Source of the DNA: Ruania alba
Lineage (GTDB): Bacteria; Actinomycetota; Actinomycetes; Actinomycetales; Beutenbergiaceae
NCBI RefSeq assembly: GCF_900105765.1
Contig: NZ_FNTX01000002.1
Location: 1,240,001-1,304,000 of the forward strand
Length of the DNA: 64,000 nt
Direction: 5' to 3'
Every line of letters starts with the position of its first letter. Positions within the stretch are counted from its first letter, which is position 1. Position numbers and translations under genes: made by a program. The notes below the pieces were generated by a model. That model searched no databases and was not told the origin of the DNA. It saw nothing but the letters and a program-made list of their open reading frames with translations. Positions 52,476 through 64,000 of the stretch are shown one piece after another.

Positions 52476-53528
52476 CTACTGCTCCACCACGCGGATGCCG
52501 GCCACGTCCACGGCACGCACCCGACTGCCGGTGCCGTCGAGGTCGACTAGCACGCGGTCCCCGTCGGGGCCGACCCGCTCCTCGAGCCCGAGCAGGGCAG
52601 CCGGACGGTGCGTGGCCATCCCGACCAGCTCGTCCTCGGGGAAGGGAAGGTGCGTGCGCGCCCAGTCCAGGCAGGCGCGCAACGAGCGGCCGGACCCCGC
52701 GAGCAGTGGGGTTCCTGCCAGGGTCAACCGGCCGTCCTCGGCGACGGTGACCGCACCGCCCACCGGTGTGCGGTACTCGCCCGGCTCGGCGCCGGCGAGG
52801 GAGGCCGAGTCGGAGGTGAAGATGCAGCGGTCAACGGTCGCTCGCAGGAACACGGTGAGCACGTCGGCAGGTAGATGATGCCCGTCCGGGATCACCATCG
52901 CCGTCAGCCGGTCCTCGGCGAGCTGTGCCCACAGATGGTTCGGGTGGCGTGGCAGCTGGGGGTAGGTCCCGTTGCCGAGGTGGGTGGCGAGGCTGGCGCC
53001 CGCTTCCGCCGCCTCGCGCACCCGGTCCGGGCTCGGTGCGCAGTGCCCGAGCGAGACCCGCACGCCCCGTGCGGCGGCGCCGCGGATGTACTCCAGTGCG
53101 CCATCCCGTTCCGGGGCGAGGGTAACGATGCGCACCAGCCCGTCCCCGGCCTCCTGCCACCGGTCCAGCTCGGCCAGGTCGGGGTCACGCAGGTGGCGCC
53201 CGTCGTGTGCGCCCCGAGGGCCGTCGTCGGGGTTCAGTGCAGGCCCCTCGATGTGTACGCCCGGGATCGAATGCGCCACGAGCGGATCCCGACGGCGTGC
53301 CTCGCCGATCGCACGGAGCGTTGCGAGGATCTGCGCTTCGGGCGCCGTGACGAGGGTCGGCAGGTAGGTGGTGGTCCCTTCGGCCCACAGTCGCCGGGTC
53401 AGCGCGATGACCAGGTCGGCGTCGACCTCAGGGGCGTTCAGATCGAGACCGCCATAGCCGTTCACCTGCAGATCGACCAGGCCGGGCCAGGTCACGTGTC
53501 TGGGGTTTCCTGGCTCCTGCGTGGTCAT
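52476..53528 (-). CDS. nagA: N-acetylglucosamine-6-phosphate deacetylase
   Basis: 350 residues from ATG 53528, overlapping the nagB stop by four bases. Metal-dependent amidohydrolase with PGLVDLQVNGYGGLDLN near the N-terminus, HIEGPALN (metal Glu), SLGHCAPSPD and ATHLGNGTYPQLPRHPN (metal histidines), IPDGHHLP and the catalytic Asp in CIFTSDSASLAG. It converts GlcNAc-6-phosphate to GlcN-6-phosphate. Slightly short at the N-terminus compared with typical NagA (about 380), missing part of the small beta-domain. Co-transcribed with nagB from the LacI-controlled promoter at 54354. Confidence 0.9.
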   Translation of the reverse strand: MTTQEPGNPRHVTWPGLVDLQVNGYGGLDLNAPEVDADLVIALTRRLWAEGTTTYLPTLVTAPEAQILATLRAIGEARRRDPLVAHSIPGVHIEGPALNPDDGPRGAHDGRHLRDPDLAELDRWQEAGDGLVRIVTLAPERDGALEYIRGAAARGVRVSLGHCAPSPDRVREAAEAGASLATHLGNGTYPQLPRHPNHLWAQLAEDRLTAMVIPDGHHLPADVLTVFLRATVDRCIFTSDSASLAGAEPGEYRTPVGGAVTVAEDGRLTLAGTPLLAGSGRSLRACLDWARTHLPFPEDELVGMATHRPAALLGLEERVGPDGDRVLVDLDGTGSRVRAVDVAGIRVVEQ

Positions 53529-54322
53529 GGCGTCGATGATGCCGCAGGCAATCCGTCGGGGTGCGTATCGAGCTCGCTCGCCGCGTCGCGATCGAGGAAC
53601 CAGCGGGCGCCGGGGTGCTCTTGCAAGCGGCTCGCCGGGCAAGCCGGCTCCACCGGACCGGTCAGTGCCCGGGCCACCGCAGGTGCCTTCTGGCTGCCGA
53701 CGACCGTGCACACCATCGTGGCGGCGGAGGCGAGGGCCGGCACCGTCAGCGTGAGCGCCCGCGAGGGTACCTCCGAGACGTCGGCGAACAGCCCGTCGTC
53801 GACCTGCTGCTGCCGGGATACCAGGTCCAGCGTGACCTCCCGCACCCAGCCGGGGTCCGCGAAGTCCGCGATCTCCGGCTCGTTAAAGGCGATGTGCCCG
53901 TTGACGCCCACGCCGAGACACGTCACGTCGACCGGTGCTCGGGTAAGCAAGGCGCTGTACCGGGCGATCTCGGCCGCGCTGTCGTGGGCATCGGCGCGGA
54001 TGCGTTCAAAACCGGGGAGAGCGGTGAGCGGGAGGCGGTCGGCGAGCCACTGGCCGAAGGCCTGCGGCCGGTCCATGGCCAGGTCGAGGTACTCGTCCAT
54101 GTGGAAGGAGGAGACCTTCGACCAGTCGATGCGTTCGTCTCTCGAGAGCTCGGCCAGCATCGCCTCCTGGGACGGGGCGCTGGCGAAGACCACGCGTGCC
54201 GATCCGTGATCCTGGATAGCCCCGATGATCGCTGCGGCGGCGTGCTGGGCCGCTGCGCGAGCGGTCTCCTCCACGGTGGCCCCCATGATGACCCGTGGCT
54301 CCAGCTCGTCGGTGACGGGCAT
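53525..54322 (-). CDS. nagB: Glucosamine-6-phosphate deaminase-family protein
   Basis: 265 residues from ATG 54322 (AAAGGA upstream). NagB/SugarP-isomerase fold: VVFASAPSQEAML where NagB has the phosphate loop, SSFHMDEYLDL (the conserved Asp-Glu-Tyr of the family), and CLGVGVNGHIAFNEP with the catalytic Asn/His segment. It would convert GlcN-6-phosphate to fructose-6-phosphate and ammonia, following NagA in the same operon. The phosphate loop is diverged (SAPSQ instead of GSTP), so a related amino-sugar phosphate is possible. Confidence 0.88.
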   Translation of the reverse strand: MPVTDELEPRVIMGATVEETARAAAQHAAAAIIGAIQDHGSARVVFASAPSQEAMLAELSRDERIDWSKVSSFHMDEYLDLAMDRPQAFGQWLADRLPLTALPGFERIRADAHDSAAEIARYSALLTRAPVDVTCLGVGVNGHIAFNEPEIADFADPGWVREVTLDLVSRQQQVDDGLFADVSEVPSRALTLTVPALASAATMVCTVVGSQKAPAVARALTGPVEPACPASRLQEHPGARWFLDRDAASELDTHPDGLPAASSTP

Positions 54323-54337
54323 GTCATTCCTTTCGCT

Positions 54338-54351
54338 TGCAAGCGGTTGCA
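54338..54351. promoter_or_regulatory. LacI-type operator upstream of nagB
   Basis: TGCAAGCGGTTGCA, the classic LacI/GalR-family pattern TGCAAnCGnTTGCA. It overlaps a second perfect palindrome, CGCTTGCAAGCG (54334-54345), and lies between the -10 element and the nagB start, where a bound repressor would block transcription. Confidence 0.8.
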
Positions 54352-54353
54352 CT

Positions 54354-54382
54354 ACTCTAGTGTGGCGTTGTTCTACGGTCAA
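54354..54382 (-). promoter_or_regulatory. Promoter of nagBA
   Basis: On the minus strand TTGACC (54382-54377), a 17-base spacer, and TAGAGT (54359-54354), immediately followed by the LacI operator. The start codon is 32 bases beyond the -10. Confidence 0.6.
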
Positions 54383-54427
54383 TCGGTTCCGGTGGCGCGG
54401 TGGTGCCGTCCTGGCGAGGTCGACGGG

Positions 54428-55501
54428 CTAGGCCAGCCAGCGGTCAAGGTTCTCCGCGATGAACTCGTCGTCGCGCAGATGGGGGTAGGCCGCCCAGATG
54501 CGGTCGATCTCCTCGGCTTGCCCGGGGGAGAGGCCCTCGCTCTCGTCGAGGAAGACCAGATTCTCCAGCAGGCCCTGCCGGCGCAGGATCTCGTGGATAC
54601 CCGGGATACAGCCGGCGAAACTGTTCGCGGCATCGAAGATCACCCCGTTGGCATCGGTGAGCGCGGGGTTGATCCGCAGCAGGGTCGCCAGCGCCTCGCC
54701 GTCCCCCTGCTTGGCGCGGCCGGCGAGCGCCAGTGTGTCGACGGCGCCGCCCACCCACACTGCCCATTGCCCGAGCAGCCCGCCGACGATCTCCATCTGC
54801 CTGGTCTCGCCGCTGGTGGTCTGAGCCGGGAACGAGGTGAGCAGATCCATCACGATGTGATCGTCGTTCCCCGTGTACAGGGCCACCTCATCGGCGCGGT
54901 CGGACCGGGCAACACCTTGGATCACATCGAGCGTGGCGTAGCGGTCGAACGGGGCGATCTTGATGCCCACGACGTTCGGCAGCGCGGCCAGTCGCTCCCA
55001 GAAGGAGCGGGCGAGCCGCGTGCCCCCGACGGCGGGCTGGAGGTAGAAGCCGATCACCGGCAGCACGGCAGCGACCGCCGCGGCGCGCTCGATCAGATCG
55101 TCCTCGCTCGCGTCACCGACGCCGTAGGGCGAGAGCAGCACGAGGTCGTAGCCGAGGGACGCGGCGAGCTCGGCCTCGCGCACCGCCTGCCGAATCGGGC
55201 CGGTGATGCCGGCCACGAGCAGGGGGTTCTCGGCCGGGTACTCCCGGGCGACGTCGGCCGTGAGCGTGAGGACGGGTTCGAGCAGGTGTTGATGCGAATC
55301 GTGGATGGCGAACTGCGTCGAGTGCACGGCCACCGCGAGTCCGAGCGCCCCGGACTCGATCTGGTAGCGACCCAGCGCTCGCTGTCGGCGCTCATCGAGT
55401 CTGCGGTCGCTCGTCAGCGCGAGCGGGTGGGCGGGGATGACGCCACCGGCCCGGAAACGGGCGACGGCGGGCGAGGCGTCGAGTGCTGTCGCGGTGGTCA
55501 T
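54428..55501 (-). CDS. Dihydrodipicolinate-synthase-family aldolase/lyase-like protein
   Basis: 357 residues. TIM-barrel with GVIPAHPLALTSDRRLDERRQRAL, VAGITGPIRQAVREAELAASLGYDLVLLSPYG, GFYLQPAVGG and VGIKIAPFDRY, in which the Lys corresponds to the Schiff-base lysine of DHDPS/NanA/KDPG-type enzymes. It is longer than NanA or DapA (about 300). Its ATG shares one base with the stop of the epimerase-like gene (TGATG), so the two form an operon. It would split or form a carbon-carbon bond in a keto sugar acid; the substrate is unknown. Confidence 0.85.
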   Translation of the reverse strand: MTTATALDASPAVARFRAGGVIPAHPLALTSDRRLDERRQRALGRYQIESGALGLAVAVHSTQFAIHDSHQHLLEPVLTLTADVAREYPAENPLLVAGITGPIRQAVREAELAASLGYDLVLLSPYGVGDASEDDLIERAAAVAAVLPVIGFYLQPAVGGTRLARSFWERLAALPNVVGIKIAPFDRYATLDVIQGVARSDRADEVALYTGNDDHIVMDLLTSFPAQTTSGETRQMEIVGGLLGQWAVWVGGAVDTLALAGRAKQGDGEALATLLRINPALTDANGVIFDAANSFAGCIPGIHEILRRQGLLENLVFLDESEGLSPGQAEEIDRIWAAYPHLRDDEFIAENLDRWLA

Positions 55502-56517
55502 CAGAACTTCCCGTCTCGTTGCTGGAACTTGGTGGGCTTGCCGAGCGTCTCGCCACCGGAGGCGACCCAGTCGGCGGTGGCCGTGATGAGCTGATCGAGC
55601 GTGAGCGCCGGGTAGCCGAACAAGCCGTGGCACCGGGCGGCATTGGCGAGCAGTGCGGTGGGTGCCGCCTCGCCGGTGAACTCGACCTCGCGTCCCATCC
55701 GTTCGGCGAGCTGACTCGCCACCTGGCGGATCGAGATCGTCTCCGGTCCGGTGAGGTTGAGCACGAACGGGGGCACATCTGCGTGCAGCAACGAGCGCAG
55801 CACCACCTCGTTGGCGTAGCCCTGCCACACCACGTTCGCGAATCCGGTGGTCACGTCGACCGGCCGGCCGGCCATGATCTCGCGGGCGATGTCCACCAGT
55901 ACCCCGTAGCGCATCTCGACGGCGTAGTTCAGCCTGATCAGGGAGGTGGGGGTGTGCGTGGTGCCGGCCAGGTGGGTGAGCACGCGCTCCCGGCCCAGGC
56001 AGGACATCGCATAGTCTCCGACCGGACCGAGCGAGTCGCCTTCGCGGGAGCCGCCGCCGGCCACCGGCACGAGCGGATAGACATTCCCCGTGGACAGGGC
56101 TGCGATCCGGGAACCGGCGTAGCGCTGCGCCACGCGTCCGGGCAGGTAGGCGTTCGTGGCCCACGTGGCGGCCTCAGCTCCGGTGCTGCCGAACTTGGCG
56201 CCCACGAGGAAGACGACGTTCGCCGCATCGGGGAGGTCGTCGAGCGCGCGGTCGTCGCTGAGGTCGGCGGACACGATCCGCGCACCCGTTCGCTCGATCG
56301 TCTCTCGAGACGACGCGCTGCCGTAGCGGGAGACCGCGTAGACCGTCGCACCGGTTCCTGCGCGCTCGATCGCGCGCACGGCCAGTGAGACCAGGCTGGG
56401 GCCGAGCTTGCCGCCCGCGCCGAGGACGACCAGGTCGCCGTCGAGGGCGCGCATGTCACGAATGAGCCCGTCGCTGGGCACCGCGAGGGCCTCCTCGAGC
56501 TCGTGCAGAGTCTTCAT
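55501..56517 (-). CDS. NAD-dependent epimerase/dehydratase-family (extended SDR) protein
   Basis: 338 residues. After a short N-terminal helix, GDLVVLGAGGKLGPSLV is a Rossmann GxGGxxG loop; then NVVFLVGAKFGSTGAEAATWATNAYLPG and ALSTGNVYPLV suggest an extended SDR sugar epimerase or dehydrogenase, although the YxxxK motif is not obvious (DYAMSCLGRER occupies that position). First gene of a two-gene operon with the aldolase-like gene. The start has only a weak ribosome binding site. It is divergent from the Gfo/Idh/MocA gene, with the LacI operator between them. Confidence 0.82.
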   Translation of the reverse strand: MKTLHELEEALAVPSDGLIRDMRALDGDLVVLGAGGKLGPSLVSLAVRAIERAGTGATVYAVSRYGSASSRETIERTGARIVSADLSDDRALDDLPDAANVVFLVGAKFGSTGAEAATWATNAYLPGRVAQRYAGSRIAALSTGNVYPLVPVAGGGSREGDSLGPVGDYAMSCLGRERVLTHLAGTTHTPTSLIRLNYAVEMRYGVLVDIAREIMAGRPVDVTTGFANVVWQGYANEVVLRSLLHADVPPFVLNLTGPETISIRQVASQLAERMGREVEFTGEAAPTALLANAARCHGLFGYPALTLDQLITATADWVASGGETLGKPTKFQQRDGKF

Positions 56518-56626
56518 CACAGGTTCCAGTTCGTTGGGAGCGAGTGCCGCACTGTGCCGCTGCGGTGGTCGCGGCTGCGCCCGGCATCGGGACGCTGGCG
56601 ACCGCTGCGCGGCCATGGCGGACACG

Positions 56627-56642
56627 GTACGGATCCGTGCCC
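56627..56642. promoter_or_regulatory. Second palindrome beside the LacI operator
   Basis: GGTACGGATCCGTGCC, symmetrical at 14 of 16 positions, five bases before the LacI operator in the divergent promoter region. Could bind another regulator; function unknown. Confidence 0.35.
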
Positions 56643-56647
56643 AAAAA

Positions 56648-56661
56648 TGCAACCGATTGCA
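56648..56661. promoter_or_regulatory. LacI-type operator in the epimerase / Gfo-Idh-MocA divergent promoter
   Basis: TGCAACCGATTGCA, identical to the site at 62666 and differing at two positions from the nagB site. It lies 131 bases from the start of the minus-strand epimerase and 46 bases upstream of the Gfo/Idh/MocA start, so one bound dimer could control both. Confidence 0.8.
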
Positions 56662-56706
56662 GCATCGATATGAGAACCTGGGTGAACCAGACGATTGGAG
56701 GACGTT

Positions 56707-57726
56707 GTGGGCGAGTCCGTGCGTGTAGGTGTCGTCGGAGCGGGAGCGAACACCCGGCGCCACCACCTGCCCAAGCTGCAGGCCATCGACGGTGTCGAGG
56801 TGGTCGCCGTCGCCAACCGGAGCCGGGCATCGGGGAGCCGGGTGGCTGAGGAGTTCGGGATTCCCGTGGTCCATGACCACTGGCAGGATCTCGTCGGCCA
56901 TGCTGACGTGGACGCCGTCGTGATCGGGACCTGGCCGAACATGCATGAGCCGGTCACCGTGGCTGCACTGCGGGCGGGGCACCATGTGCTGTGCGAGGCG
57001 CGGATGGCGCGCGACTTGGCCGAGGCTCGCCGGATGCTCGCCACGGCGCGCACGCACCCGAAGCAGACGGCGCAGCTCGTGCCGGCGCCGTTCACGCTGC
57101 CCTATGACGATGCTATTTCCCGCCTGATCGGCGAGGGAGCGATCGGGGAACTGGTCGGCGTGGACGTGACGATGCGGACCGGGTACGCGGACCGCCAGGC
57201 ACCTCGCAGCTGGCGTCAGGACGTCGACATCAGTGGCCTCAACGTGATGACGCTGGGAATCTGGTACGAGCAGGTGATGCGCTGGGTCGGGGAGGCGACG
57301 CGCGTCTCAGCGCTCGCGCGCACGGTCGTCCCGGTGCGACCGGATGGTGCTGGTGGGACTGTCGCCGTCGACGTGCCGGACCACGTCGATCTCATCGGGG
57401 AATTGGCCGGGGGTGGTCAGTTGCGGATGACGATCAGTCAGGTGAGCCGGTCGGCCGGGAACGGCGTGCACATGCTCGGAACCGACGGCACGCTGACCTT
57501 CGCTGACGGGGAGCTGACGATTCAGCGGCGGGACGCCGAACCGGAGGCGGTTCCGCCCGACGCCGCGGCCGGATGGCGGGTCGAAGAGGAGTTCGTGGCA
57601 GCGATCCGCGGCACCGAGCAGGTGCGCCGGACGACCTTCGAGGATGGCGTGCGCTATATGCGATTCACCGAAGCGGTGCATCGGAGCACGCGTGAGCACC
57701 GGCAGGTCTCGTTGAGTGAGCTGTGA
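56707..57726 (+). CDS. Gfo/Idh/MocA-family oxidoreductase
   Basis: 339 residues from GTG 56707, chosen because TTGGAGGA ends about five bases before it. N-terminal Rossmann domain (VRVGVVGAGANTRRHHLPKL; VVAVANRSRASG; ADVDAVVIGTWPNMHEPVTVAALRAGHHVLCEARMARDLAEA) with the usual EKP motif replaced by EAR, so the catalytic lysine is missing. C-terminal alpha/beta domain ends RYMRFTEAVHRSTREHRQVSL. Family members oxidise or reduce sugars, inositols and amino sugars with NAD(P). It is divergent from the epimerase-aldolase operon and shares its operator, suggesting joint action on one sugar. The absent Lys means a different or non-canonical reaction. Confidence 0.88.
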   Translation: MGESVRVGVVGAGANTRRHHLPKLQAIDGVEVVAVANRSRASGSRVAEEFGIPVVHDHWQDLVGHADVDAVVIGTWPNMHEPVTVAALRAGHHVLCEARMARDLAEARRMLATARTHPKQTAQLVPAPFTLPYDDAISRLIGEGAIGELVGVDVTMRTGYADRQAPRSWRQDVDISGLNVMTLGIWYEQVMRWVGEATRVSALARTVVPVRPDGAGGTVAVDVPDHVDLIGELAGGGQLRMTISQVSRSAGNGVHMLGTDGTLTFADGELTIQRRDAEPEAVPPDAAAGWRVEEEFVAAIRGTEQVRRTTFEDGVRYMRFTEAVHRSTREHRQVSLSEL

Positions 57727-57733
57727 CGAGACT

Positions 57734-57753
57734 GTGGTGACAGGCTCCACCAC
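57734..57753. terminator. Small hairpin after the Gfo/Idh/MocA gene
   Basis: GTGGTG (57734-57739) pairs with CACCAC (57748-57753) around an eight-base loop, in the gap between this gene and the convergent toxin gene. Short stem, no T-run, so weak. Confidence 0.3.
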
Positions 57754-57782
57754 GTCGCCACGGTGAGGGCCATCGCATCGCG

Positions 57783-58097
57783 CTACAGGCTCATCACCAC
57801 ACGCAGCGCGGCGTCGACCGCGCGCAACTCATCGAAGCCCAGGTGCCCGATCCGGTCGCCGAGCCGGCTCGGATCGACTGCGCTCGCCTGTTCGGCGAGG
57901 ACGCGAGTTTCGATGCCGTCGATCTCAACGCTCGGGCGGAATGTGGCAGGGCGTGCCGACGTCGACGTGGGAGCGACCAGCCAGGTCGACAGGAGATGCA
58001 GATCATCGGACTGCACAACGACTGCGTAGCGAGATCTCTGCTGTTCGTGACCCCGGGTACCGCGGGGTGCGCGTAGACGGTAGACATCACCACGCAC
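57783..58097 (-). CDS. MazF/PemK-family toxin
   Basis: 104 residues from GTG 58097, which overlaps the antitoxin stop by 11 bases. MRGDVYRLRAPRGTRGHEQQRSRYAVVVQSDDL is the characteristic N-terminus, followed by LVAPTSTSARPATFRP and the C-terminal helix. MazF proteins cut mRNA at short sequences; the antitoxin encoded upstream blocks it. The open frame runs further upstream, but the overlap with the antitoxin and the family length favour this start. Confidence 0.85.
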   Translation of the reverse strand: MRGDVYRLRAPRGTRGHEQQRSRYAVVVQSDDLHLLSTWLVAPTSTSARPATFRPSVEIDGIETRVLAEQASAVDPSRLGDRIGHLGFDELRAVDAALRVVMSL

Positions 58098-58320
58098 GCA
58101 GAGACTCCATGTCGCGCAAAACCTGCGCGGCCTCAGCACGGTCATCGGGATCCGCAGCCAGAGCCTCAGCCTCGGTCCGTAGCCGGGACTTCGCATGCTT
58201 GGCAGCCGCCTCGACCAAGGCATCGCGCACCGCCTGCGACACGGGAGTTCCATCGGAGGTCAACTCATCGAGTGCGAGCCGAGCCTCATCATCGGGACGG
58301 AATGTGATCGTTGCGGCCAC
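58087..58320 (-). CDS. Ribbon-helix-helix-type antitoxin (partner of the MazF-like toxin)
   Basis: 77 residues, GTG start at 58320. MAATITFRPDDEARLALDELTSDG, with a short DNA-binding strand followed by helices (PVSQAVRDALVEAAAK), then an acidic toxin-binding tail (LAADPDDRAEAAQVLRDME). First gene of the pair, overlapping the toxin. An inverted repeat at 58329-58349 just upstream is the likely autoregulatory site. Confidence 0.82.
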   Translation of the reverse strand: MAATITFRPDDEARLALDELTSDGTPVSQAVRDALVEAAAKHAKSRLRTEAEALAADPDDRAEAAQVLRDMESLRAW

Positions 58321-58328
58321 AACTTGAG

Positions 58329-58349
58329 TGTCTCACGAGATGTAAGACA
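58329..58349. promoter_or_regulatory. Inverted repeat upstream of the antitoxin gene
   Basis: TGTCTCAC (58329-58336) and GTAAGACA (58342-58349), seven of eight bases complementary, five-base spacer. It starts nine bases before the antitoxin GTG, the usual place for toxin-antitoxin autorepression. Confidence 0.5.
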
Positions 58350-58434
58350 TTTCGAGAGAAGGCCCGCGGAGGGCATGTTGCGCCGCCAGTTGGTGGCGTG
58401 ATTGCGGCGGGAAGTCGTTCGATTGACACGTGGT

Positions 58435-58794
58435 TCAGTCGGACTTCGGTGGGCGCTCGTTCCCGGTAGAGAGTGCATTGCGCATACGTTGGACCGCGTC
58501 CGCCAGCGGCTGCAGGTCCTTGTCGATCACGGCTTGAACGACGCCGGGACTGGTCGAGAAGTAGTGGTGGGCCAGGAAGTCCCGCATTCCTGCGATGTCA
58601 CGCCACCTGATTCCGGGTTCAGTGTCAGTGATCTCGGCGGTCAGCGACTTCACTGCCTCGCCGATCTCAAGGAGTCTCATCGCGACGGCATCCATCACAA
58701 GTTCGCGTGAGATCGGGCCGTGCCGCAGGTGCGAGTGGATCGCGGCGATGGCGTCCGCGATGTCGTTCAGGCGGTCGATGTCTGAGCGCCTCAC
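58435..58794 (-). CDS. HepT-like (DUF86) toxin/ribonuclease
   Basis: 119 residues, all helical. Contains RDFLAHHYF, the RxxxxHxY motif of HepT ribonucleases within a HEPN fold. It overlaps the nucleotidyltransferase gene by four bases. In known pairs the partner adenylylates the HepT tyrosine to neutralise it (family knowledge). Both components look intact. Confidence 0.9.
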   Translation of the reverse strand: MRRSDIDRLNDIADAIAAIHSHLRHGPISRELVMDAVAMRLLEIGEAVKSLTAEITDTEPGIRWRDIAGMRDFLAHHYFSTSPGVVQAVIDKDLQPLADAVQRMRNALSTGNERPPKSD

Positions 58795-59120
58795 AGCGCG
58801 ACCAGGTCCTTGGCCGCTCGCTCGCGCACTCGTTCCTTGAGTCCGTCGCGCGGGACCAGGTCGACATGGACACCGAGGAGATCCTCGAGCGCATGCTGAA
58901 TGCCAATGAGGTCGATGATGCTGGTGCCCGGCGGGATGTCGACCAAGATGTCGACGTCGCTGTTCTCGTGGTCGTCCCCTCGGGCGGTGCTGCCGAAGAT
59001 CTCTGGGTTGGTCAGCCCATGGCGCCGCATCACCCGGCGCAACTCGCTACGGTGTGCGGCTACCCGCCGGCCCGTAGAGCCGCTGAACGGCCCTTGGGCT
59101 GGCGATGAGAGTTCGGGCAT
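58791..59120 (-). CDS. MntA-like minimal nucleotidyltransferase antitoxin
   Basis: 109 residues. GSTARGDDHENSDVDILVD is the nucleotidyltransferase active-site pattern GSxARG...DxD; about 85 residues remain on either side. First gene of the HepT/MntA pair. It lies 57 bases from the LacI stop and reads in the same direction. Confidence 0.9.
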   Translation of the reverse strand: MPELSSPAQGPFSGSTGRRVAAHRSELRRVMRRHGLTNPEIFGSTARGDDHENSDVDILVDIPPGTSIIDLIGIQHALEDLLGVHVDLVPRDGLKERVRERAAKDLVAL

Positions 59121-59177
59121 GACCCTATCGTATCGGTGGGTCCGATCCGGGGCCCTCGCTCTGGCCAGCTGTCGCCG

Positions 59178-60185
59178 TCAGACCCTCCCCGTCGTCCCCC
59201 GCGCCGCGTACTCCCCTGACAACTTCTGATTCCCTGGCGCTCCACCCGCGCTGACCTCGCTCAGCAGCGTCACCGCGCGGGTGCCCAGCTCCTCGAACGG
59301 AGCGGTGACAGTGCTCAACTGCGGTGTCAGGGTGCGCGCAAGGAGCACGTCGTCGCAGCCGATGATGCTGCGATCGTTCGGGACGGACAGGCCCTGCTCG
59401 TCGAGCCCGCCGACCACCCCGCAGGCAAGGTAGTCATCGAAGGCCATGATCGCCGTCGCCCCGCTCGAAGCGATTGCCTCCGCTGCGTGCCAGCCGGCCT
59501 CGTACGTGGCTTCGACGGGTCCCAGCTCGACGAGCTCGACATCGGCCGAGGTCTGCTGCGCCCAGGAGCGGACGGCGTTCGTCCGCTGACTTGCCGCCCA
59601 GGATCCTGCGGGTCCGCGAAGCAGCAGGATCCTGCGGTGACCGAGCTCGACCAGGTGGTCACCCGCCTCCCGCAGAGCTGCAGAGTTGTCACAGGTCACC
59701 GAGGGAATGCCGCGGACCGCCCGGTTGACCAGCACCGTCGGCGTCGACCCAACCGCTGCCTGCAGGTCCTTGGTGGCCAGGCGAGGTGAAGCGACGATCA
59801 GTCCGTCGACCTGGGCGCTGAGGCGCTTGAGTTGGTCGGCGGCCTTCTGACCGCCGGACTCGGCGTCGAGCAGCATCACCGACGCATCCGACGCACTCGC
59901 CGCGCGCTCGACCGCTCGGACCAGTGGCGGGAAGAAGGGGTTGGTGATGTCCAGCACCACCAGGCCGATCAGTCCGGTGCGCCCGGTGGCGAGCCCGCGG
60001 GCGGCGCGGTTGAGCTCGTATCCCTGGGCCGCCGCAGTCGCGAGGATCCGCTCGCGGACCTTCGTGTTCACCATGTCCGGCCGGGAGAAGGCACGCGAGA
60101 CAGTCGATGCCGAGATGTCGAGCTCTCGCGCGATCGAGTAGATGGTCGCCTTCACGCGTGCGCCCCCTGTCCGTCGTCGGTTCAT
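59178..60185 (-). CDS. LacI-family regulator, probable repressor of the amino-sugar island
   Basis: About 335 residues. HTH: ATIYSIARELDISASTVSRAFSRPDMVN; the effector domain continues VRERILATAAAQGYELNRAARGLATGRTGLIGLVVLDITNP. ATG 60185 has GGGAG ten bases upstream; GTG 60191 and GTG 60155 are alternatives. It follows the hydrolase gene by about 21 bases and is the last gene of the DUF4127-hydrolase-lacI operon, whose promoter region holds a TGCAACCGATTGCA operator, so it is likely autoregulated and controls all three operator sites. Confidence 0.92.
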   Translation of the reverse strand: MNRRRTGGARVKATIYSIARELDISASTVSRAFSRPDMVNTKVRERILATAAAQGYELNRAARGLATGRTGLIGLVVLDITNPFFPPLVRAVERAASASDASVMLLDAESGGQKAADQLKRLSAQVDGLIVASPRLATKDLQAAVGSTPTVLVNRAVRGIPSVTCDNSAALREAGDHLVELGHRRILLLRGPAGSWAASQRTNAVRSWAQQTSADVELVELGPVEATYEAGWHAAEAIASSGATAIMAFDDYLACGVVGGLDEQGLSVPNDRSIIGCDDVLLARTLTPQLSTVTAPFEELGTRAVTLLSEVSAGGAPGNQKLSGEYAARGTTGRV

Positions 60186-60206
60186 CGGCACGATACTCCC
60201 GCAAGG

Positions 60207-61124
60207 TTAGTTCAGGTGGTCGGTGAGCCAGGAAGCGCAGGCGGCGAAGATGTGGTCGGGAAGTGGGTGGCCCGCGTCGTGCATCAGCACGTCGAAGCCT
60301 GCATCGGGCCAGTGCTGCTGCGCACTCTGGGCGATCTCGGCGTTGTGCGAACCGTCCGAAGCTCCACCGCCCGCGTACAGGACGGGGCGAGGGGCGATGA
60401 GTCCGGTGAGTTCGTCCAGATCGCGGTGTCGTGACAGCTGGTCGCCCAGGTACCAGGGGTCGTGCCAGTTCGAGTGCGCGAAGCCCAGGCCTGGTTCGTG
60501 CACCACGGCGGCGCGAATCCGTGGATCGAGGGCGGCGAGGAACAGCGCGTGCTTGCCACCGAGGGAGTGGCCGAGTGTGCCGATTCGATCGGCGTCGACC
60601 CCCGGGATCTCGGTCAGTGCATCGACGGCGAGCAGCAGATCGGCGACGCTGCGGCCCAGGCCGGTGACACCGGGGTGATGCGCTGCGTGTGCCGCGGCCG
60701 GCGGTCCGTATCGCGCGGACAGGTCGGTGGGGCCTTCGCGCTCGGAGAGCATCTCCGCCCACCACGGCACGGCAAGCACTCCGAGGCCGTGTGCGGCGAG
60801 GCGCAGCGCGTAGTCCCGGCCCGGCCCCGGGCGGCTCGCCGGATAGAGCGGGCTTGGCCGGCCCAGCAGCGTGTCCGTGTCGTAGAACGGCACCACCACG
60901 ACGGCGGAGGGCGAGCTGGCATCGGGCGTGAGCAGCACCGCCGTCAGGTCCGCTCCGAAACTGTGCAGGTGCAGCTGGCGCTGCACGCTGCCGTGAGGGC
61001 CGGGTGTCGCCTCGCCAAGCCGCCACGATCCGTTGACGGGGCGGCGTGCGCCGATCCAATTGATCCACGCGGCCCGGTCGGTGGGATCGGTGGTGTGAGC
61101 AGACCCGTGGCCGGCGGCACTCAT
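60207..61124 (-). CDS. Alpha/beta hydrolase (dienelactone-hydrolase/acetylxylan-esterase-like)
   Basis: 305 residues from ATG 61124, overlapping the DUF4127 stop by four bases. Nucleophile elbow GHSLGGKHALF and a C-terminal DAGHPLPDH histidine; VVVVPFYDTDTLLGRP is the oxyanion region. Cytoplasmic, no signal peptide. Probably an esterase acting on an acylated sugar or similar intermediate; the exact substrate is not known. Middle gene of an operon whose other members are a DUF4127 protein and the LacI regulator. Confidence 0.85.
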   Translation of the reverse strand: MSAAGHGSAHTTDPTDRAAWINWIGARRPVNGSWRLGEATPGPHGSVQRQLHLHSFGADLTAVLLTPDASSPSAVVVVPFYDTDTLLGRPSPLYPASRPGPGRDYALRLAAHGLGVLAVPWWAEMLSEREGPTDLSARYGPPAAAHAAHHPGVTGLGRSVADLLLAVDALTEIPGVDADRIGTLGHSLGGKHALFLAALDPRIRAAVVHEPGLGFAHSNWHDPWYLGDQLSRHRDLDELTGLIAPRPVLYAGGGASDGSHNAEIAQSAQQHWPDAGFDVLMHDAGHPLPDHIFAACASWLTDHLN

Positions 61125-62599
61125 TGAATGCGTTCCAGATCGAAGTCCACGGTGAACAGGTAGTTCCAGGGCCAGCGCACGTGGCGTACCCGCCACCCGT
61201 TCAGCGCGCCGATGCCGGATGCCCAGTCGTTGAGCTCGGCCTCGACGCGTCGCTCGAGATCGGGGATTTCCTCGAGCGGCGGATCGGTCAGCCCACGCTC
61301 CCTGAGTTCGTGCAGCAGCCGGGGGCGCAGCACCGGCAGGTAGTGGCCGTCTTTGATGATCTTGTTCGCCCGGAACTGCTCACGTTCATGGCACGCCTCG
61401 TCGGAATTGTCGATGGTCTCGCTGGCTGCGGTCGCGAGAGTGGTCCCCAGGGTGTTTCCCGCCGTATTCCAGCCGCCGTAGGAGACCAGGCGTTGCAGCA
61501 GGTTCGCGCCGTCGAGGGCGTCCACCAGCAGCGGGTCTGAACCGTTCGCGTAGCGCACGTCGGCGAGCGCGACGCGGCGGTCATCAGCGAGCAGTGCCTC
61601 GACCTCGGCGACGAGCCCCTCACGCTCTGCTGGCGTGCTCGGTTCTGGTGCCTCGCCGGTCCAATCGCCGGGCGTCGTGGACGGTGGATAGACGACGAGA
61701 ACGACATCGGCATCTGCTGGATCGTCCACGCGGACCGCTCCGAGCGCGCGAATCTGATTGCCGATGCCGTCGTTGAGCGGGCGGTCCTCGTACGGTGCCG
61801 TGCGGTCGAGGCCGCCCGGCTCCGGGCACCGTACGCAGATCCGCGGCGTCACTCCCTGCGCCTCGGCCGCGACCCGGGCCGTGAGCACGCTCGGCACCTC
61901 GTCGGCCCCGGGGTAGAACAGGGCGTGTGTGCCGAGGCGGTTGTTCCATCGGTCCAGGGCGCGCCGGTCCGATGCAGGAAGGCCGCGGGGTGCGGTGTCG
62001 TCGGATGTGATGGCGAGCGTGGCCACCGTGCCGTCGGCGAGCAGGGACAGGGCTGTGAGGTTGATCGTGTGGTTGCGCAACCTGCGCCCGACCAGATCTG
62101 CCACCGCGTCGGCAGGTACGGCCTCCCGGGCGGCGCTCACCTGGTCGGTGTCGGTCTCGCCGTGCTCGTAGTTGTCCCAGGCCTGGGACAACTCGAACAG
62201 GCGACGCCCATGGGTCGCCCAGTACTCGGGCTCTTGCCGGCTGCGCGTGTTGTTGTCGTAGTGCGGAAGGCGGGTGACGACCTGGTACGCCGTGATCGGG
62301 GAGGTGAGTCCTCGGAGTACCTCGAGCCGCGGGAGTGCATCGAGGATCCCGTCTGGCGTGTTCCGGGACGGGATGAGTCCGCCGTGCACCAGGAGGTCGA
62401 GCGAGAGGACGACGGCATCGACGTCCCGGTCGATCTCCCGGAGCCACACGGCAAGCCCGGCTGTGTTCGCGCCCTCGCGGAAGCGCGGCATCAGATGCCG
62501 AGGGGGCAGGAGAACGTCGACGCCGCAGCACCGGCCGAACCATTCTGCATAGCCGGCCGTGTTCGGGCGCTCGTCCGGCGGGAGGAGGGCGATGCGCAT
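61121..62599 (-). CDS. DUF4127-family protein
   Basis: 492 residues from ATG 62599. Begins MRIALLPPDERPNTAGYAEW, then LSLDLLVHGGLIPSRN, TRLPHYDNNTRSRQEPEYW and NGSDPLLVDALDGANLLQRLVSYGGWNTAGNTLGTTLA, all conserved hallmarks of DUF4127. No signal peptide or transmembrane segment. The family is of unknown function; here it leads the operon ending in lacI and shares a divergent operator with a CBM-propeller gene, which ties it to carbohydrate use. The many conserved D, H and N residues would suit a metal-dependent enzyme. Confidence 0.9.
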   Translation of the reverse strand: MRIALLPPDERPNTAGYAEWFGRCCGVDVLLPPRHLMPRFREGANTAGLAVWLREIDRDVDAVVLSLDLLVHGGLIPSRNTPDGILDALPRLEVLRGLTSPITAYQVVTRLPHYDNNTRSRQEPEYWATHGRRLFELSQAWDNYEHGETDTDQVSAAREAVPADAVADLVGRRLRNHTINLTALSLLADGTVATLAITSDDTAPRGLPASDRRALDRWNNRLGTHALFYPGADEVPSVLTARVAAEAQGVTPRICVRCPEPGGLDRTAPYEDRPLNDGIGNQIRALGAVRVDDPADADVVLVVYPPSTTPGDWTGEAPEPSTPAEREGLVAEVEALLADDRRVALADVRYANGSDPLLVDALDGANLLQRLVSYGGWNTAGNTLGTTLATAASETIDNSDEACHEREQFRANKIIKDGHYLPVLRPRLLHELRERGLTDPPLEEIPDLERRVEAELNDWASGIGALNGWRVRHVRWPWNYLFTVDFDLERIQ

Positions 62600-62660
62600 G
62601 GATGGCCTTCCGAGCTCGGGCTTGTGCAGTGTCGGTGGACCACGGTATCTTCGACGAGCC

Positions 62661-62684
62661 AGATCTGCAACCGATTGCAGATCT
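62661..62684. promoter_or_regulatory. LacI-type operator in the DUF4127 / CBM-propeller divergent promoter
   Basis: Core TGCAACCGATTGCA at 62666-62679 within a larger palindrome: left arm AGATCTGCAA (62661-62670) and right arm TTGCAGATCT (62675-62684) are perfectly complementary. It lies about 62 bases from the DUF4127 start and 60 bases before the plus-strand gene. Confidence 0.85.
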
Positions 62685-62739
62685 GCGGCTTGTTGAAAAG
62701 CGCGCGACGCCGTTGTCCCAGCGCGGAGGAGAAGTGACC

Positions 62740-64000
62740 ATGACACAGTCCAGAAGGTTGCTGACACGAGCAGCGGGTGTCCTGCTGGCGGGAGTGATGC
62801 TTGCCGTGGCGGGCGTCAGTGCACATGCAGCAGGCGATCCGCCGGCTGAGGAGCCCAATCGGCTCACGAACACGAGCTTTGAAGAAGGCGAGGACGCAAC
62901 CAGTGCGCCGGGGTGGTCGCCATTGTGGGGGAGGGACGAGCTTGTCTCGTTCTCCGAGGAGCGCGCCAGCGATGGCGTGCGGAGTCTGCACGTTGTCCGG
63001 GAAGACGGGATGCGCACCGGTGGGTTCGTCTCTGATCCGGTGCCAGCCGACGGCGGCGAAACGTATGAGTTCAACTTTGATCAGTATCGCGTGGGCGGCG
63101 CGCTGAGCGTCACGTTCTACTTCGACGACTCCGACGGGAACGTGATCAGCCAGCCGTACGAGATGGTGCGTTCTACGACCGACAGGTGGGAGCGTACGGC
63201 GGTTCGTTTCGAGGCTCCCGAGGGAACAGTCTCGGCACGTCTGCTCTTCTATGCGGTCTCCGGGGCGACGCTCAACACGTTCATCGATGATGTGTGGTTC
63301 GGGCCGGCGAGTGAGGAACCTGAGGAGCCTGAACTGTCTCCTGTCGAGACGATTCTCGCCCAGGATGAGAATCTCGAGTACCTCGGTACTCCCGTGACCA
63401 CTCAGATCCCGAGTCAGGCGGCTCACGGCATCGAGGACGGGCGGCACGTGTCGTATCAGGCGTTCAAGGGCGCGCCGGACACGGGATATCCGGCAACCTT
63501 TGCGGTGACTGATGTGGCCACCGGCGAGCAGGTCCGCACCTGTGAGATCGACGGTGCTGAGCACTCGAGGAACCTCAACATCGCTGATGACGGTCGCGTG
63601 TACTGGGGGACGTACCACGATTCCATGCTGTGGCGCTATGACCCCGCCACGGGCGAGTGCGAGAATCTGGGCCGGATGAGCGACCAGAAGGACTCGACCT
63701 TCGGCATGTCTCCCGGACCTGACGCATCGATGTATATCGGGGCTTACCCCGATGGTCGCCTCCTGCATGTGGACCCGGTGACCGATGAGGTCGAGCTGCT
63801 GCGCGAGATCGATCCGAATGCGGACTACATCCACTCGATCGCTTACCACGAGGAGACTGACACGGTTTATGTCGGCTCCGGCGGGCAAGTCCCTCAAATC
63901 TGGAAGATCACGGACGCCGGACGCGGCGAACAGACGCTGATCGCCGACGAATCCACGGCACCAGGCCTGAACGATGGAGCTACCTTCGTGGGCCGGATGG
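62740..64000 (+). CDS. Exported CBM plus beta-propeller protein (cut by the window end)
   Basis: At least 420 residues; continues beyond 64000. ATG at 62740 with GGAGGA nine bases upstream (GTG 62734 is an alternative). Signal peptide to about residue 31 (AHAAGD). Residues ~35-190 read like a CBM4/9-type jelly roll (RLTNTSFEEGEDATSAPGWS ... TLNTFIDDVWFGP). From ~205 there are beta-propeller-like repeats (VYWGTYHDSMLWRYDPATGEC, MYIGAYPDGRLLHVDPVTDE, VYVGSGGQVPQIWKI). Probably binds and possibly cleaves a glycan outside the cell. Divergent from the DUF4127 operon and sharing its LacI operator. Confidence 0.85.
   Translation, partial: MTQSRRLLTRAAGVLLAGVMLAVAGVSAHAAGDPPAEEPNRLTNTSFEEGEDATSAPGWSPLWGRDELVSFSEERASDGVRSLHVVREDGMRTGGFVSDPVPADGGETYEFNFDQYRVGGALSVTFYFDDSDGNVISQPYEMVRSTTDRWERTAVRFEAPEGTVSARLLFYAVSGATLNTFIDDVWFGPASEEPEEPELSPVETILAQDENLEYLGTPVTTQIPSQAAHGIEDGRHVSYQAFKGAPDTGYPATFAVTDVATGEQVRTCEIDGAEHSRNLNIADDGRVYWGTYHDSMLWRYDPATGECENLGRMSDQKDSTFGMSPGPDASMYIGAYPDGRLLHVDPVTDEVELLREIDPNADYIHSIAYHEETDTVYVGSGGQVPQIWKITDAGRGEQTLIADESTAPGLNDGATFVGRM

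Follow-up and report, generated by a model that had tools for sequence, protein, structure and literature searches.

A LacI-family regulator and its palindromic operators probably unite about 29 genes at two loci of Ruania alba

Here we analyze a 64,000-nucleotide stretch of the Ruania alba genome (G000, contig C2, positions 1240001-1304000; "the window"), in which a LacI-family gene (59178-60155, minus strand) lies near three palindromic sites matching TGCAANCGNTTGCA. It is highly probable that this LacI is a local, autoregulated repressor and that, through such operators, about 29 genes at two loci are under its control. The sites, their placement relative to promoters and their co-occurrence with the window LacI can be read in the sequences, and from them we infer binding, repression and the action of an inducer. 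The regulation is an ordinary, known kind of LacI switch. The assignment of regulator to operators joins about 29 genes, including DUF4127, a propeller family and a NagB-like subfamily, into one probably inducible pathway, the core of which recurs in several actinobacterial families. It also makes genes of unknown function testable together: once the inducer is found, the substrate should follow.

The window features concerned are the following (gene calls are from a simple codon-usage caller written for this analysis).

52476..53495, minus strand: NagA-like amidohydrolase with THLGNG...PRHPN
53525..54322, minus strand: NagB-like isomerase/deaminase with APSQ in place of the NagB phosphate loop
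54338..54351: operator 1, TGCAAGCGGTTGCA, 16-29 bp 5' of the NagB-like start codon
54354..54382, minus strand: sigma70-type promoter TTGACC-17-TAGAGT of the NagB-like gene
54428..55501, minus strand: DHDPS-family aldolase/dehydratase-like protein
55501..56517, minus strand: nicotinamide adenine dinucleotide (NAD)-dependent epimerase-like protein (NmrA match, E 1.8e-5, below cut-off)
56648..56661: operator 2, TGCAACCGATTGCA, flanked by divergent units
56707..57726, plus strand: Gfo/Idh/MocA oxidoreductase
59178..60155, minus strand: LacI-family regulator, third gene of the DUF4127-hydrolase-lacI operon
60207..61124, minus strand: alpha/beta hydrolase with a weak glucuronoyl-esterase match (PF22244, E 3.5e-7)
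61121..62599, minus strand: DUF4127 protein (Pfam E 1.7e-109), first gene of the lacI operon
62666..62679: operator 3, TGCAACCGATTGCA, with arms that continue outward to AGATCTGCAA...TTGCAGATCT
62740..64000 and past the window end, plus strand: propeller protein of 984 amino acids in total, apparently secreted (signal judged by eye)

An exact search of the window for TGCAANCGNTTGCA returned these three sites and no others. Their positions, the identity of the latter two and their layout are as an initial annotation of this DNA had described them, namely in front of the NagB-like/NagA-like pair, in the gap between the epimerase-aldolase genes and the Gfo/Idh/MocA gene, and in the gap between the DUF4127-hydrolase-lacI operon and the propeller gene. 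Its further statement that each site lies at a promoter holds clearly for nagB, where operator 1 begins 3 bp beyond the end of the -10 hexamer TAGAGT, and less well for the other two, where the best hexamer pairs have 6-8 of 12 matches. A promoter scan of 12 kb gave 2 promoter-like sites against 0.4 expected from shuffles.

In the whole genome (4.83 Mb, two contigs) there are nine exact sites, all on contig C2, at 1294338, 1296648 and 1302666 (the window sites) and at 1310248, 1312474, 1313581, 1314962, 1627963 and 1640702. Seven of them fall within one island of 20.6 kb, four of these seven beyond the window end by at most 11 kb, and the remaining two belong to a second cluster 313 kb from the island. 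The four sites with one mismatch (1630628, 1630717, 1640535 and 1640625) are all in the second cluster, so that every one of the 13 sites with no more than one mismatch is confined to a stretch of 20.6 kb or to one of 12.8 kb (1627963-1640715). Under an order-3 Markov model fitted to the window sequence, the expected number of exact sites is 0.0004 for the window and 0.03 for the genome, and the reversed pattern, used as a control, has no exact match in the whole genome. With mismatches allowed the reversed pattern outnumbers the true one genome-wide (17 vs 13 at up to one mismatch, 215 vs 88 at up to two); counts of mismatched sites therefore prove nothing, and at one mismatch it is the clustering that carries weight. 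Of 113 site instances, a number in which overlapping loci enter twice, not one falls within a called gene. The operators are palindromes with a central CG upstream of their target genes, as is characteristic of local regulons of the LacI family.

The placement of the sites points to repression. Among 98 distinct site contexts, which include orthologous promoters, offsets from -20 to +60 yielded 48 promoter-like pairs of hexamers with 8 or more of 12 matches, and in 37 of the 48 the site starts 3-6 bp past the -10 hexamer. Shuffled flanks, which preserve single-base composition only, averaged 0.4 for offsets 2-7 and never exceeded 3. A dimer bound at this position would lie over the transcription start, and polymerase-blocking repression is therefore the natural reading. 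In the source genome this placement is clearest at nagB, at both solute-binding-protein genes and at two distal propellers, that is at 5 of 15 units. The lacI operon, preceded by the site at 62666 in the window, is headed by an operator in 15 of the 17 distinct genomes or loci compared (in this set L016 is merged with G001 and L055 with G015, and many loci were chosen for having sites), which supports the earlier suggestion of one local autoregulated regulon.

To the family architecture the window LacI conforms, with an N-terminal LacI helix-turn-helix (HTH) and a periplasmic-binding-protein-like effector domain (PF13377, E 1.8e-27; PF00532, E 1.8e-24). The HTH family PF00356 matches with E 1e-5 and 25.7 bits (cut-off 27), and with 29.5 bits, above the cut-off, in the genome search. 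The closest named ortholog among the matches is from Ruania rhizosphaerae, with 96% identity. Within 24 genomes of the family, the ten in which a LacI ortholog reaches 55% identity or more carry 2-9 exact sites (G000, G002, G007 and G017 nine each, G003 seven, G005 six, G001 and G004 five each, G015 and G018 two each), while the 14 without carry 0-1 (Fisher p 5e-7, for genomes that are not independent by descent). G006, of the same genus, has neither ortholog nor sites. Among 80 named loci, unequal in length, a site with at most one mismatch is present in 15 of the 17 with a LacI identity of at least 51% (three of which repeat genomes of the family set), compared with 7 of the 63 at 39% or less.

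The association extends beyond the family. When 394 genomes of the class were searched by LacI alone, with the five best candidates scored per genome, 14 matched at 1e-80, one of them G000, and the surroundings of the other 13 were read (one, L144, repeats the named locus L019, leaving 12 new stretches, and L146 is only 6.4 kb long). Each of the 13 loci carries at least one site with no more than one mismatch (33 in all), and 11 carry an exact one (16 in all), whereas 59 permuted half-sites at the same loci gave no exact match and, at one mismatch, a mean of 0.24 and a maximum of 3 of the 13 loci. In Nonomuraea the operator becomes TGAAAGCGATTGCA and the recognition region S(A/G)ST becomes S(A/P)AT; this covariation is only suggestive, because the Microbacterium locus L023 has AAT in its recognition region and yet an unchanged operator. 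With the co-occurrence and the promoter placement in its support, the window LacI is very probably the regulator of the sites, as had been proposed.

On this evidence the switch would probably work as follows. In the absence of inducer, a LacI dimer would sit on TGCAANCGNTTGCA at the transcription start, a few bases past the -10 hexamer, and block RNA polymerase. An intermediate of the pathway would then occupy the sugar-binding domain and release LacI from the DNA. Release would switch on the propeller proteins, which are apparently secreted, and two ATP-binding cassette (ABC) importers, together with intracellular enzymes: the NagB-like and NagA-like proteins, the AGE-family epimerase, the Gfo/Idh/MocA oxidoreductases, the 2-hydroxyacid dehydrogenase and the DHDPS-like, enolase-superfamily and DUF4127 proteins.

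Many of these features are familiar from comparative genomics of LacI regulons. In the survey by Ravcheev et al. (2014, PMC4052901), main-text passages give autoregulation for 72% of LacI regulators and a central CG in the operators of 1173 LacI regulators. The regulon resembles the local sugar regulons of those passages in its central-CG palindrome, in sites 5' of start codons, in comprising several operons including the regulator's own, and in its carbohydrate enzyme and transporter targets; it differs in that no regulator named in the same passages has this target set. In our judgement, a set of about 29 genes spread over two clusters looks large by the standard of local regulons.

With operon membership judged from gene order, the island comprises 18 genes, grouped as co-directional neighbours: the NagB-like and NagA-like genes; the epimerase-like and DHDPS-like genes; a Gfo/Idh/MocA gene; DUF4127, hydrolase and lacI; a propeller and an enolase-superfamily gene; a solute-binding protein with two permeases; two Gfo/Idh/MocA genes; a 2-hydroxyacid dehydrogenase; an AGE-family epimerase; and a CBM4_9 propeller. 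The enolase-superfamily (MR_MLE) gene sits 3' of the window-end propeller gene, outside the window. The distal cluster adds about 11 genes, namely two Gfo/Idh/MocA genes with a GDSL hydrolase, five propellers (one interrupted), and a transporter unit with a family-5 solute-binding protein/permease frame, a second permease and an ATPase.

Seven of the eight double-propeller genes in the genome lie in the two clusters. The eighth (contig C2, 2312436-2314334) lies outside both, and the 20 kb around it hold no site even with two mismatches allowed; the propeller family is therefore not wholly under this regulator. The window-end gene, previously called a CBM-propeller, is indeed a propeller, with no Pfam carbohydrate-binding match at E 0.001; the CBM4_9 match belongs to a different propeller outside the window. 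A model of the R. rhizosphaerae ortholog (mean predicted local distance difference test score, pLDDT, 66.3; 5-sequence alignment) matched mostly unrelated propellers among the 50 matches listed, at template modelling (TM) scores of at most 0.43, and supports a propeller fold but no function. One distal propeller gene (C2:1635557-1637882; L014:3557-5882) is broken across two reading frames. A structure search on the DUF4127 protein (model mean pLDDT 76.6, 3-sequence alignment) was uninformative about its fold, with TM-scores of at most 0.25 among the 50 matches listed, and a sequence search of the PDB gave best E values of 0.024 for the propeller and 0.4 for DUF4127.

The regulon appears to serve the uptake and breakdown of a carbohydrate. 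Judged from the enzyme families, we would guess at a glycan containing an N-acylated amino sugar as the substrate. Among the distinct genomes or loci that hold each gene, many of them picked for having sites, an operator stands in front of the operon with the NagB-like gene in 17 of 17, with the AGE-family gene in 11 of 11 and with the NagA-like gene in 10 of 10. Both Nag-like proteins resemble true NagB and NagA across most of their length. All 22 NagB-like rows, which comprise 20 distinct sequences, retain DEY, and 16 of the 22 retain the GxGx(N/D)GH..F(N/H)(E/D) motif; HxEGP is kept in 10 of 10 NagA-like rows. They differ in that all 22 NagB-like rows have APSQ in place of the phosphate loop and all 10 NagA-like rows have HLGNG where solved NagA has HLYNA; the loops so replaced are, we assume, those that bind phosphate. 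They also score below the curated cut-offs (101.8 bits against an equivalog cut-off of 236.9 for the NagB-like protein, 153.7 against 225.65 for the NagA-like one); for NagA this is a weak test, since the other NagA match of the genome, at 192.1, is below the cut-off as well. A separate nagB above the cut-off is found at C2:51655. The APSQ motif and this separate nagB suggest an unphosphorylated or otherwise different amino sugar, and the name nagBA is doubtful.

The NagB-like, AGE-family and NagA-like genes belong to the most constant targets, which would also fit a regulon for the ordinary use of phosphorylated N-acetylglucosamine by NagA and NagB. We consider this rather unlikely in view of the APSQ replacement in every NagB-like row, the scores of both proteins (which count less for NagA) and the nagB at C2:51655. 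A further possibility, put forward tentatively and less likely than not, would be a complete glycan pathway without known glycoside hydrolase or polysaccharide lyase, in which double propellers cut the polymer outside the cell while inside it Gfo/Idh/MocA enzymes oxidise unphosphorylated N-acyl amino sugars and a NagB/NagA-like pair that has lost its grip on phosphate processes them. A Pfam scan of 27 of the about 29 regulon proteins, all but the distal ATPase and one permease and with the interrupted propeller represented by its C-terminal piece, gave no match to glycoside hydrolase or polysaccharide lyase families. The several Gfo/Idh/MocA genes recall the oxidation-elimination pathways for glycosides such as levoglucosan and C-glycosides, and in three sister genomes an extra protein in the Gfo operon has a weak match to PF06439 (3-keto-disaccharide hydrolase; E 3.6e-6, one of three scanned), which hints at oxidation-based glycoside cleavage. 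Unlike in those pathways, PF06439 has no match among the 27 scanned proteins of the source genome.

Several points weigh against control of the whole set by the window LacI. The operons are drawn from gene order, and the other 10 of the 15 units in the source genome have poorer or differently placed promoter hexamers. L020 and L021, with a LacI identity of 54-55%, are without a site, and the lacI operon of G015 and G018, as defined here, has none directly in front. Conversely, G011, G012, G013 and G019 have one exact site each and no ortholog of at least 55% identity, and G002 (at 2944908) and G017 (C10) each have one site that adjoins genes not common to the other loci. Finally, exact sites in G007 (4659259) and G008 adjoin LacI genes of 36% and 43% identity, respectively.

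Such paralogs beside similar sites in relatives would be expected if a different LacI paralog, for instance that at 1322710-1323726 beside the island, or several paralogs together, bound the sites. The genome has 71 LacI-HTH matches, the window LacI among them, and position alone is therefore a weak argument for the identity of the regulator. The neighbouring second LacI is found at that place only in G000 and G004, whereas the sites persist in G002 and G005, where the corresponding stretches were read, and sites follow the window-LacI ortholog both inside and outside the family, which leaves binding by a paralog improbable. When the 400 bases 5' of each of eight more distant LacI genes were inspected, three proved to have CG-centred palindromes. 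L046 shows a related site (CGCAATCGGTTGCG) plus two further palindromes, L049 and L068 show a single unrelated one each, and the remaining five have none.

If the window LacI is the regulator, it might activate instead of repress, and some sites do lie in long divergent regions far from the start codon, by up to 236 bp. Where a promoter can be recognised, however, the dominant position just past the -10 hexamer (37 of 48 pairs) would hinder the polymerase, and activation appears very improbable.

The description of the regulon as self-contained with nine genes was based on three sites and nine genes that are all present in the window, but such a closed regulon has hardly any probability left, given the four exact sites within 11 kb past the window end and the two exact and four one-mismatch sites at 1627963-1640715. 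The accompanying expectation of few hits outside the island is borne out in that the genome holds only nine exact sites, with the reservation that two of them are in the distant cluster; a spread over unrelated promoters is not seen, all 13 sites with at most one mismatch being confined to the two stretches. Among the papers searched, none mentions DUF4127 and none mentions LacI together with TGCAACCGATTGCA; those that mention Ruania with LacI were unrelated by title and abstract, and no such regulon was apparent from the titles listed.

In the distal transporter unit, the family-5 solute-binding protein and an OppB-type permease share one open frame (C2:1640771-1643650; L014:8771-11650) and are separate genes in relatives. 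The binding-protein frame shifts about 75 residues before its end compared with a relative, and the fusion is either a real change or an assembly error. A flavin adenine dinucleotide (FAD)-linked oxidase gene follows this unit by 82 bp on the same strand and was left out of the regulon count. Just past the island, C2:1318527-1323726 encodes a PhoX phosphatase, a glycerol-3-phosphate-oxidase-like protein and the second LacI, and holds no site even when one mismatch is allowed. The window also has a pair of small genes (58435-59120) that separates the lacI operon from the Gfo gene and is missing at the corresponding place in G002 and G004; we take this pair to be of the HEPN/nucleotidyltransferase type.

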